From Burkholderiaceae bacterium (GTDB lineage Bacteria > Pseudomonadota > Gammaproteobacteria > Burkholderiales > Burkholderiaceae_C): a stretch of 32,955 nt of DNA. Where the stretch lies: contig JAURWR010000003.1 in the NCBI GenBank assembly GCA_030654805.1, positions 1 through 32,955 of the forward strand, read 5' to 3'. The position numbers were made by a program, and so were the translations under genes. Positions 1 to 3,378 of this stretch are shown one piece after another. Within the stretch, counting starts at the first letter, position 1. Each line of letters starts with the position of its first letter. The notes beneath the pieces are model-generated. The model saw only the letters and a program-made list of their open reading frames with translations. It had not been told where the DNA came from and made no database searches.

Positions 1-1
1 C

Positions 2-577
<576 letters not shown>

Positions 578-598: not shown

Positions 599-1042
599 GT
601 GAAATTTTCTAACCGTATTGCCCTATCGGTCGTAACTGCATCTTTGTCTTGCGCGGCAAATGCAGGTGCCCCAGATTTCTCCGGTATTTGGGTCATCGAC
701 CTCCGAACACGAACTGAGCGTCAACAAGGTGCTGAATGTGGCACGGCCGAGTTTCGGCTCAAGCAGCAAGGCAGCAGAGTCACTGGAAGCCACAGCATGG
801 CCACGGTTGGCTGTGGGCGCTTGAACGAGGGCGACCAAGAGTCGGTCAAAGGGGTCGTCATCGGTGGCGTCGCTGTCCTTGTTGTTATCAGTGGCCGAAA
901 CGGAGCAGTCGTGCTTGGTAAAGCAACGGTCGAAGGCCAGTCGCTGCACTGGGAAACTCTCGATGGCATACGAGCTGGCGATCCTTCGGGGGACTCTCCG
1001 CTGATCTTGAGCCGAGGGGTGCTTGCAAAGCAGTCAAATTGA
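599..1042 (+). CDS. Small exported protein of unknown function
   Basis: I do not recognise a characterised family. The 147-residue product starts at GTG 599. It has a signal peptide (basic start MKFSNR, a hydrophobic stretch to about residue 19, likely cleavage after ANA at about residue 22), so it is probably periplasmic. The mature part begins DFSGIWVID and is rich in short alternating strands with many Gly, Thr and Val. It resembles small beta-sheet proteins with a DFSGxW opening that are annotated only as hypothetical. Two cysteines (about residues 47 and 72) could pair. It lies at the upstream edge of the accessory stretch between purB and pyrF, and its codon use looks less GC-biased than that of purB. 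The GTG start is chosen because it immediately precedes the signal peptide and no closer ATG exists. Confidence 0.6.
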   Translation: MKFSNRIALSVVTASLSCAANAGAPDFSGIWVIDLRTRTERQQGAECGTAEFRLKQQGSRVTGSHSMATVGCGRLNEGDQESVKGVVIGGVAVLVVISGRNGAVVLGKATVEGQSLHWETLDGIRAGDPSGDSPLILSRGVLAKQSN

Positions 1043-1144: not shown

Positions 1145-1369
1145 ATGACAACGCCAGTTCATGATCTAGAAGCTGCCGTTCTCGGTCTTCCGGCCCCGGA
1201 TCGCGCGAGGATTCTGGAGCGCTTGATCGAGAGCTTCGATCGCGACACGAAGGTCGGCGACGCTTGGCTGGACGAGGCGCTGCGTCGAGAGGAAGAAGTC
1301 GTCTCGGGCAAGGTTTCAATGGTTCCAGGTCGTGAAGCCGTGGCCCGAATTCGCGCGCAATTGAAGTGA
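1145..1369 (+). CDS. Antitoxin, addiction-module component family (ParD/RelB-like role)
   Basis: This is a 74-residue acidic helical protein. It resembles the short 'putative addiction module component' antitoxins (PF09720/TIGR02574 type), which neutralise a ParE/RelE toxin encoded just downstream. Visible features are the N-terminal helix with LGLPAPDRARILERLIESFD and the later DAWLDEALRREEEVVSGK stretch with a basic end, as in that family. The ATG at 1145 is preferred over an upstream in-frame start at 1097 because GGGAG lies seven bases upstream of it. The stop overlaps the toxin start by four bases (GTGA), which points to translational coupling. The family assignment comes from sequence recall, not a search. 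Confidence 0.75.
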   Translation: MTTPVHDLEAAVLGLPAPDRARILERLIESFDRDTKVGDAWLDEALRREEEVVSGKVSMVPGREAVARIRAQLK

Positions 1370-1659
1370 TTTACGAGCTTCACCCTGACGCTGAGACCGA
1401 ACTGAACAACGCCGCTTTGCATTACGCCAAGGAGGCCAGCAAAGCCATCGCGCTGGCATTCCTGGCCGAGTTCGAGAGGGTTGCCGAGTTGCTTGAATCG
1501 AATCAACAACTGGGCACGAAATCGAAGGGCGGCTTACGCGTGTACCCCTTCCGGCGATTTCCTTATTCCATCGTTTATCGCGAAGTGGCGAGCGGCCCAT
1601 ACCTCTATGCCGTCGCGCATCAGAGACAAGAACCTGGCTATTGGCTGGGGCGCGTTTAG
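1366..1659 (+). CDS. ParE/RelE-family toxin
   Basis: The 97-residue product has the compact fold signature of the ParE/RelE superfamily. It has an N-terminal strand (IYELHPDAETELNNA) with two helices, then the strand series GLRVYPFRRFPYSIVYRE ending in YAVAHQRQEPGYW. The late AVAHQRQ motif, usually AV.H..R.PGYW, is characteristic of this toxin group. ParE members poison gyrase and RelE members cut mRNA; the sequence alone does not separate the two here. The GTG start at 1366 overlaps the antitoxin stop, so antitoxin is made first, the usual order. The pair lies in the accessory stretch between purB and pyrF and may stabilise it. Confidence 0.82.
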   Translation: MIYELHPDAETELNNAALHYAKEASKAIALAFLAEFERVAELLESNQQLGTKSKGGLRVYPFRRFPYSIVYREVASGPYLYAVAHQRQEPGYWLGRV

Positions 1660-1683: not shown

Positions 1684-2047
1684 ATGACATTCACCGCTCA
1701 ACTCGCCACCGCCGAGTCCCTGAACAACTCCCTGCTCTGCATCGGCCTCGACCCCGAGCCGTCGAAGTTTCCGGGGGCCTGGAAGGGCGACGCCAGCCGC
1801 ATCTTCGACTTCTGCGCGGCGATCGTCGATGCGACGAAGGATCTCGCGATCGCGTTCAAGCCGCAGATCGCGTACTTCGCGGCGCACCGCGCCGAGGACC
1901 AACTCGAAGCGCTGATCGCGCACATCCATGCGGTGGCGCCGGCCGTGCCGGTCATCCTGGACGCGAAGCGCGGCGACATCGGCAGCACCGCGCAGCAGTA
2001 CGCCAGCGAGGCCTTCGAGCGCTACCGGGCCGATGCGGTGACGCTGT
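1684..2047 (+). repeat. Direct repeat, left copy (pyrF 5' 364 bp)
   Basis: This is the left arm of a direct repeat whose right arm is 2536-2899, at about 91% identity by hand count. Similarity starts at the ATG (with GCC just before it) and ends abruptly after GCGGTGACGCTGT. Upstream flanks share nothing convincing beyond those few bases. Mismatches concentrate in the first 17 codons (11 of 32). The repeat period is 852 bases. Confidence 0.9.
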
Positions 2048-2049
2048 GA
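1684..2049 (+). pseudogene. pyrF: Truncated orotidine 5'-phosphate decarboxylase (first pyrF copy)
   Basis: This 121-residue frame matches the N-terminal part of the complete pyrF downstream at 113 of 121 positions by hand count. It retains [10 protein letters not shown], the FKPQ lysine and the catalytic [10 protein letters not shown] segment. It then stops at TGA immediately after the shared bases GCGGTGACGCTGT. The phosphate-binding C-terminal half of the TIM barrel is missing, so OMP decarboxylase activity is not expected. Against the intact copy I count 32 base differences in 364; 18 of the 26 changed codons are synonymous. Both versions therefore diverged under selection before this one was cut. 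It reads as a broken allele rather than a recent slippage duplicate. Confidence 0.85.
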
Positions 2050-2056
2050 GAGCCGC

Positions 2057-2539
2057 ATGTCTGACCTTCTCGCGATCGTAGGATCAATCGTCGTCGCCGG
2101 ATTAGTCGCGGTCGCGGCGCTACCAAGCTTGCTTCGGCATTTCGGTTTTCTGCGTTGTGACCTCAGGACGGAACCCGTCATTCAGGGAGCGGGATTCGCA
2201 TTCTTCTGCGTGCTTTGGTTCATGTTTGCGAGTAGCTTTCTCGCCTGGGTATTTCCGATCGCGTTCTTCGTGAGCTACTTCTTGGGCTACGTCCTTGGGG
2301 GTAACACCCCTGCGTTCAACCGTTCCGAAATCGCGCTCTCGCTGATCTGTACCGGTGTCGCCACAGGCGCAAGCGGCTTGATCGCGATGTCGGGGCCCGT
2401 TGACGCTTTAGGGGACGTGATGGCGCGGTTGATGGCTATGAACTATTCGGTGCTTGTCGCTGCGGCCGTCATCCGAATGGCGGTTCGTTCCTTTCGAGCC
2501 TCTCGCAAGACCGCTTCCACAGACAAAAGCTCGCCATGA
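2057..2539 (+). CDS. Orphan integral membrane protein lodged between the two pyrF copies
   Basis: I do not recognise the family of this 160-residue protein. It has a start-proximal hydrophobic segment (about residues 5-25), a strongly aromatic segment containing [18 protein letters not shown] followed closely by [18 protein letters not shown] (about 45-82), and two weaker ones (about 93-110 and 126-145). The basic tail ([14 protein letters not shown]) probably stays in the cytoplasm. The ATG lies seven bases after the truncated pyrF stop, and the stop overlaps the intact pyrF start as ATGA, so translation is coupled. Two 60-base lines counted by hand gave about 50-55% GC, against about 63% in a neighbouring pyrF line, suggesting foreign origin. 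Confidence 0.65.
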
Positions 2540-2899
2540 CCTTCATCGAACAACTGTCGGCCGCCGAGTCGCTCAACAACTCCTTGCTCTGCATCGGCCT
2601 CGACCCCGAGCCGTCGAAGTTTCCGGGGGCCTGGAAAGGCGACGCCGGTCGCATCTTCGATTTCTGCGCGGCGATCGTCGATGCGACGAAGGACCTGGCG
2701 ATCGCGTTCAAGCCGCAGATCGCGTACTTCGCGGCGCACCGCGCCGAGGACCAATTGGAAGCGCTGATCGCGCACATCCACGCGGTCGCGCCGACCGTGC
2801 CGGTGATCCTCGATGCGAAGCGCGGCGACATCGGCAGCACCGCGCAGCAGTACGCCCGCGAGGCGTTCGAGCGATACAAAGCCGACGCGGTGACGCTGT
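2536..2899 (+). repeat. Direct repeat, right copy (5' part of intact pyrF)
   Basis: This is the right arm of the pyrF direct repeat whose left arm is 1684-2047. It continues without interruption into the rest of pyrF, whereas the left arm breaks into unrelated sequence. The 488 bases between the arms are almost entirely the orphan membrane-protein gene. Confidence 0.9.
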
Positions 2900-3378
2900 C
2901 GCCGTTCATGGGTCACGATTCGATCGAGCCTTACCTGGACTACGCTGACAAGGGGCTGATCCTGTTGTGCCGCACCTCGAATGCGGGCGGCTCCGATCTG
3001 CAGGCGCAGCGCATCGTCGGTGCCGACGGCCGGCCGGGCGATCTGCTGTACGAACACATCGCGCGGCTCGCGCAAGGACCTTGGAACCGCACCGGCCAGC
3101 TTGGCCTGGTCGTCGGCGCGACCTTCCCGGCCGAGATCGCGCGCGTGCGCGAACTGGCGCCAACGCTGCCGCTGCTGATCCCCGGCGTCGGGGCGCAGGG
3201 CGGTGATGCGGCGGCGACGGTGCGCGCGGGGTGGCGATCGAAGGACGGCAAAACCACCGGGCCGATCGCCGTCAACTCGTCGCGCGCGGTGCTCTACGCC
3301 AGCTCGGGCGATGACTTTGCCGAAGCCGCGCGGCGTGTCGCGGAGGCGACACGGCTGCAACTGAACAGCGCACGCTGA
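2536..3378 (+). CDS. pyrF: Orotidine 5'-phosphate decarboxylase, intact copy
   Basis: This enzyme decarboxylates OMP to UMP, the last step of de novo pyrimidine synthesis in the cytosol. At 280 residues it fits the longer bacterial type (OMPdecase type 2). Key residues seen are Asp23 in GLDPEP, Lys59 in FKPQ, and the catalytic D-x-K-x-x-D as Asp93, Lys95 and Asp98 in [11 protein letters not shown]. The later CRTSNAGG and [10 protein letters not shown] segments fit the phosphate-binding loops. Its ATG overlaps the stop of the upstream membrane-protein gene (ATGA), which makes its expression depend on that cassette unless an internal promoter exists. The first 364 bases are repeated upstream in truncated form. 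Confidence 0.95.

Follow-up and report, generated by a model that had tools for sequence, protein, structure and literature searches.

The window, by which we mean the whole stretch of 32,955 nucleotides that was analysed, is contig C125 of a 3.87-Mb Burkholderiaceae draft genome (G000; 131 contigs, 3.87% contamination). Both window and contig start inside purB, which ends at base 577 and whose DNA is 88-96% identical to that of 13 relatives. Between purB and a complete pyrF lie a one-gene left module, a right module of antitoxin and ParE-type toxin genes, a truncated pyrF copy, and a gene for a membrane protein that we call mem160 (Table 1), and all of these genes are co-oriented with purB and pyrF. 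GC content is 56-60% in the module genes (54-67% at third positions) and 67-70% in purB, pyrF, and the next gene (86-93% at third positions).

Table 1. Features from purB to the intact pyrF, in window coordinates
Feature	Position	Strand	Remarks
purB, 3' part (adenylosuccinate lyase)	1..577	+	Pfam ASL_C, 5.4e-51 on 86-577; conserved left flank of the variable site
hyp147, left module	599..1042	+	147-aa protein, family-less; GC 56%
Antitoxin (Unstab_antitox), right module	1145..1369	+	Pfam PF09720, 5.6e-11; common to G008 and G001
ParE-type toxin, right module	1366..1659	+	Pfam PF05016, 2.9e-9
Truncated pyrF copy, left arm	1684..2049	+	Codons 1-121; stop created at the joint
Putative illegitimate joint	2047..2056	+	pyrF position 364 joined to TGAGAGCCGC upstream of the next ATG; origin presumptive
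mem160	2057..2539	+	160-aa protein with five hydrophobic stretches; GC 57%; its stop and the start of pyrF overlap in ATGA
Intact pyrF (OMP decarboxylase)	2536..3378	+	280 aa; first 364 bases form the right repeat arm

The original prediction was of a direct repeat of the first 364 bases of pyrF at about 91% identity, and a base-by-base count bears this out: bases 1684-2047 recur at 2536-2899, a spacing of 852, with 332/364 positions identical (91.2%), no gaps, and longest shared exact runs of 57, 52, and 42. Outside the repeat, the similarity ends sharply, with 12/30 positions matching upstream of the start codons (where both copies end in GCC) and 9/30 beyond base 364. The left copy does end where the similarity ends and the right copy is complete, as had been proposed (121 and 280 aa, respectively); of the 221 positions of the Pfam OMPdecase profile, the left copy covers 2-83 and the right copy 2-213. 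The left reading frame is open throughout, with zero frameshifts and zero internal stops, and its TGA stop is made up of T2047 and the first two bases of the insert. That insert, described beforehand as a 488-bp cassette with a membrane-protein gene, occupies 2048-2535, has that length, and contains a single 160-aa reading frame, mem160, with a 4-base overlap into the pyrF start.

Searches of Pfam, NCBIfam, PADLOC, and PHROGs assigned neither mem160 nor hyp147 to a family, and hyp147 was found in 0/14 other genomes of the genus. Among 399 family genomes, mem160 is present in one, that of the window itself, and it has no clear relative in 399 genomes of the order, a set that overlaps the family set; the order-level matches in eight other genomes (E <= 0.01, with 0.0024 the best) resemble chance similarities between membrane segments. 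A phage or plasmid origin of mem160 was set aside, with no match in plasmid, phage, and viral collections. The gene looks like an orphan.

The doubled pyrF start is also rare. The 5' part of pyrF is matched in 388/399 family genomes, and among the matches listed only G000 and one other genome, G163, have two. We do not regard G163 as a second case: its two copies are 74% alike and lie on separate contig ends (G163:C233:1-771 and G163:C126:10-717) in a different arrangement, which may reflect contamination or a true second gene. A whole-genome DNA search revealed no second pyrF copy in the other genomes of the genus, the extra matches being of 28-40 bp in four genomes. We found no published account of insertion at purB-pyrF in Burkholderiales, an absence that on its own does not make the site undescribed.

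Content of the purB-pyrF interval across the genus

The comparison set comprised 14 genomes of the same genus, one genome per species, and the differences reported here are thus differences between species. The site is readable in 13 of them. In the remaining one, G007, it is interrupted by contig ends in pyrF (codon 46; G007:C21:1) and in purB (G007:C118:3), which would fit a site whose content varies or recurs within the sample. A search of relatives for empty sites and for other genes in the same position, which had been suggested from the window, finds both: the interval is near-empty in 8/13 readable relatives (17-27 bp between the final matched codon of purB and the start of pyrF) and filled in 5/13 (G001, 2477 bp; G008, 1417; G009, 1162; G012, 1098; G014, 884). 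The filled intervals hold modules, including toxin-antitoxin genes, in various left and right combinations, and in all five of these relatives pyrF is whole, with the modules located after the purB stop and ahead of the pyrF start. A mobile element that targets pyrF was therefore rejected, and the suggestion that an element inserts in pyrF and restores it is not supported.

The arrangement closest to that of the window is found in G008, where an intact pyrF is preceded by an ORF, a second ORF with weak likeness to MazE (23.8 bits against a cut-off of 24.7), and the same antitoxin-ParE pair, the ParE gene sitting immediately 5' of pyrF. DNA of G008 aligns with window bases 1096-2047 as one block of 86% identity that ends at the truncation point of the window, and the G008 pyrF runs on intact past that point. 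The window antitoxin DNA is 86% identical to that of G008 and 78% to that of G001. In G001, the order is a membrane ORF, a MazE-like antitoxin, the antitoxin of the window without a whole toxin, a 244-aa protein, and a PIN toxin. We also observed in G001 (L112:2443-4060) an apparent short ParE remnant after the shared antitoxin; the 244-aa protein matches a PHROG without an assigned function (1.1e-46), and the first codons of pyrF differ there too.

The other three filled intervals share a HicA-HicB pair, identified by Pfam in G012 and by DNA similarity in G009 and G014; the HicB stop overlaps the pyrF start via ATGA in G012, and the same bases occur in G009 and G014. On the left side, one ORF is common to G009 and G008 (89.9% over 553 bp, of which ~100 lie in purB), and part of another left stretch is common to G012 and G014. 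The start of this second shared left module lies directly after the purB stop in G012 (L115:1685-2080) and in the same stretch of G014 (L116). G014 is without part of the module; its stretch starts with GTTAGGC, which we take to resemble an integron core site, and a partner site was not found.

In G001 and G000, toxin-antitoxin genes stand beside yet other left content. When left content (the G008/G009 ORF or not) is crossed with right content (either HicAB or the antitoxin, whether ParE accompanies it or not), 4/4 combinations occur, and for this the interval must have undergone recombination or repeated gain and loss. The modules have diverged between species to a degree similar to pyrF, so that part of the pattern could stem from ancient vertical inheritance followed by loss. 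A profile scan for recombinase families returned none among the five window genes between purB and the intact pyrF, in agreement with the earlier remark that no recombinase gene was visible, and none among 10 interval proteins of G001, G008, and G012.

Divergence and affinity of the two repeat arms

The arms differ in 26 codons, of which 18 are synonymously and eight nonsynonymously changed, exactly as many changed and synonymous codons as had been counted from the sequence. They have a dS of 0.307, a dN of 0.037, and a dN/dS of 0.121, which becomes 0.080 without the first 10 codons, start regions being variable among species; across 91 pairs of relatives, dN/dS has a mean of 0.092 (sd 0.046). 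Within each arm, 27/32 differing bases are also present in some of the 14 relatives and five are private. Because dN/dS is near the mean of the relatives and most of the differences recur in them, the arms diverged as working genes under purifying selection, and the left copy is without decay. The expectation that two separately evolved, selected alleles had been joined is upheld by these ratios.

Trees built separately for the arms, another of the proposed checks, gave a divided answer. The right arm groups with G001 at a support of 91/96 (not starred), a grouping that the left arm does not share, which fits the expected separate origins; sister arms, which would not fit them, are not rejected, since forcing the arms together costs 8.1 log units with an AU p of 0.24 (0.208 when the first 30 bases are omitted). 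Downstream of pyrF, too, no genome is closer than G001 (93%), and the same holds across all 577 purB bases (94.8%). The right arm follows G001 as the flanks do and the left arm does not, and no crossover point was located. A pairing of the left arm with G008, expected if the toxin-antitoxin genes and pyrF travelled together, was neither recovered nor rejected (AU p 0.31), and the tree of the pyrF 3' part does not fix a position for G000. Overall, the tree leans toward separate origins of the arms without proving them, and neither sequence identities nor the trees settle which arm is native and which is the newcomer.

Candidate histories of the truncated copy

The explanation we favour, with confidence only a little better than even, is that a truncated pyrF came to lie beside a whole one when two versions of the site were linked, through homology at one end and by an illegitimate joint at the other. 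The purB-pyrF interval would then be an exchange site in the genus at which homology in the two flanking housekeeping genes helps small modules to be swapped, gained, and lost, with DNA presumably taken up by natural transformation. One parent would have carried purB-hyp147-antitoxin-ParE-pyrF, an order of the kind seen in G008, and the other purB-mem160-pyrF. With mem160 as the donor's contribution, the homologous side would lie in pyrF; with the toxin-antitoxin side as that contribution, it would lie in purB or further left. On the illegitimate side, pyrF position 364 of one version would have been linked to the bases directly beyond the other version's purB stop, and the outcome would be a nonfunctional 5' fragment of pyrF, followed by mem160 and by an entire pyrF that keeps its normal start.

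The joining event, its one-sidedness, and the second haplotype are what we infer from this anatomy. The second parent is proposed because the end of mem160 overlaps pyrF through ATGA and because the joint reads TGAGAGCCGC before the mem160 start; its ATGA overlap, being like that of HicB, makes it probable that mem160 acquired its place between the two genes elsewhere. In support, the joint TGAGAGCCGC-ATG resembles the bases that follow purB, where TGAG is found in 10/13 readable relatives; the varied module combinations of the relatives, the lower GC content of the module genes, and the mostly synonymous differences between the arms also speak for it. Microhomology at the joint amounts to 1 bp with the GTTTGAG end of purB in the window and to 3 bp (TGT) with GTGTGAG of G001. 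Genes for ComEC and DprA were each matched in 15/15 genomes of the genus and also in 10 and 11, respectively, of 14 control genomes; as prerequisites they permit transformation, and they do not prove competence. Against our explanation, a genome with purB-mem160-pyrF was not found in the genus, family, and order genome sets, and no net loss is visible relative to the G008-like order. The single base of microhomology with the purB end of the window, the sister arms that the AU test does not reject, and a left arm that does not group with G008 despite the shared toxin-antitoxin genes count against it as well.

One-sided exchanges might also work as a ratchet, in which each misjoined swap stacks a module before a fresh pyrF start and the old 5' end remains. 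We consider this extension decidedly unlikely; were it true, arrays of toxin-antitoxin and membrane-protein genes would grow without a recombinase, and the 364-bp repeat would keep the newest module excisable.

Four other histories were weighed. The one put forward from the window itself is a Campbell-type integration by one crossover in pyrF of a circle of ~852 bp carrying a pyrF 5' piece and mem160, to which we add the variant of a larger non-replicating circle since reduced. Such an integration would yield the observed form exactly (truncated left copy, insert, whole right copy, no loss), and single crossovers of circularised linear DNA are known in E. coli (PMC3240628). It is nevertheless unlikely in our judgement: the 488-bp insert has only a family-less gene with no replication or mobility genes, no plasmid or phage record matches that gene, and a circle leaves unexplained both the abutment on pyrF through ATGA, as in the chromosomal HicB, and the purB-like bases of the joint. 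The 852-bp circle goes unsupported: in the relatives, modules lie between purB and pyrF, and G008 has the toxin-antitoxin genes next to a whole pyrF. Joining of two versions would explain the truncation, and a circle is not needed. A duplication within the lineage, in which pyrF was copied locally, one copy was truncated, mem160 was inserted, and the copies diverged, would fit the finding that over bases 31-364 the left arm has its nearest sequence in the right arm (92.8%), ahead of every relative, as well as the sister arms that the AU test does not reject and an arm dS of 0.28-0.31 that lies below the mean of 0.46 among relatives. That dS is still of interspecies size, however (the right arm and G001 differ by 0.27), and a dead copy would not hold a dN/dS of 0.08-0.12, while the left arm is free of frameshifts and internal stops; the grouping of the right arm with G001 and the lack of a second pyrF in the other genomes of the genus, with only G000 and G163 doubled among the family matches listed, also speak against a duplication, which we hold to be very unlikely.

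An assembly chimera, in which two strain haplotypes of one sample were stitched together, might be suspected from the fragmented and partly contaminated draft, from the start of the contig in purB, and from the G007 contigs that likewise break on both sides of the site. We find it very doubtful, since a misjoin based on overlap needs shared sequence and the joint would offer only 1-3 bp, in contrast to the exact runs of up to 57 bp in the arms, where a switch leaves no scar. Finally, the modules could be integron cassettes that the integron integrase of the genome inserted at a secondary site. Toxin-antitoxin cassettes are common in integrons, and the genome does encode a full integrase (G000:C23:44091-45032, 469 bits) with adjoining attC-like sites. 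A relaxed attC scan, however, returned zero sites in the six filled intervals (0.2 in shuffles), and mem160 and HicB overlap the pyrF start with no space for an attC; a cassette origin is extremely improbable. That relaxed scan detected one site of the genome's own integron, missed a second that is recognisable by eye, and gave one probable chance hit inside an ORF, so that it is not proof on its own. A strict scan returned nothing even at this integron, because the R' core there, GTTAGCC, departs from the consensus.

The integron itself, at G000:C23 ~39600-45057 (L136:5600-11057), combines the complete integrase (TIGR02249) with a short cassette row of a 435-aa ORF, a 161-aa ORF, an insertion that is presumably IS110-like, and a gene pair that we take to resemble BrnT/BrnA. 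The first two ORFs are followed by attC-like sites, one recognised by scan and one by eye. Rfam searches of six integron and interval loci returned only 5S rRNA.

Relation to known systems of gene exchange

Judged from gene content alone, the purB-pyrF site would be akin to a minimal mobile element (MME). Such elements were reportedly described in Neisseria by Saunders and Snyder in 2002 and by Snyder et al. in 2007. An MME has different gene cassettes between conserved genes, and homologous exchange in the flanks has been proposed for it (PMC3082526). The likeness lies in two conserved genes, differing whole-gene cassettes between them, and no mobility genes in those scanned; the difference is that the variation here is between species of one Burkholderiales genus and that the window copy has what appears to be a misjoined scar.

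For the proposed joint, the nearest counterpart is homology-facilitated illegitimate recombination (HFIR), described in Acinetobacter baylyi, Pseudomonas stutzeri, and Streptococcus pneumoniae. It occurs far less often than normal exchange, usually uses 3-10 bp of microhomology, and inserts ~1 kb, with a deletion that is generally of similar size (PMC3240628). Our locus would resemble HFIR in having one presumably homologous side, another with little or no homology, and ~1 kb added. It differs in that the event is deduced from anatomy only, with a predicted microhomology of 1-3 bp, and in that no coupled deletion is seen, an absence that counts against the HFIR reading. The same mechanism has been proposed for displaced T6SS immunity genes in Vibrio cholerae (PMC5361080), where, similarly, an incoming module is anchored by a conserved flank and older pieces are left as orphans; there, effector and immunity genes are concerned, whereas here the piece left behind is from a housekeeping gene that is intact downstream.

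Empty sites, the parent-like G008, and the candidate misjoined product all occur in one genus, and the route by which modules enter can thus be reconstructed and tested. For annotation, a truncated pyrF beside a complete one is not necessarily a mobile element or a decaying paralogue; the scar is most likely a product of ordinary DNA exchange rather than of a new kind of mobile element. On a broader scale, Oliveira et al. (2017) reported that integrase-free hotspots are over-represented in naturally transformable bacteria (PMC5635113). The purB-pyrF site shares with these hotspots a turnover of genes between core genes without recognisable mobile elements, and it differs in the kind of evidence, theirs being statistics over 80 species and ours a single site read base by base.
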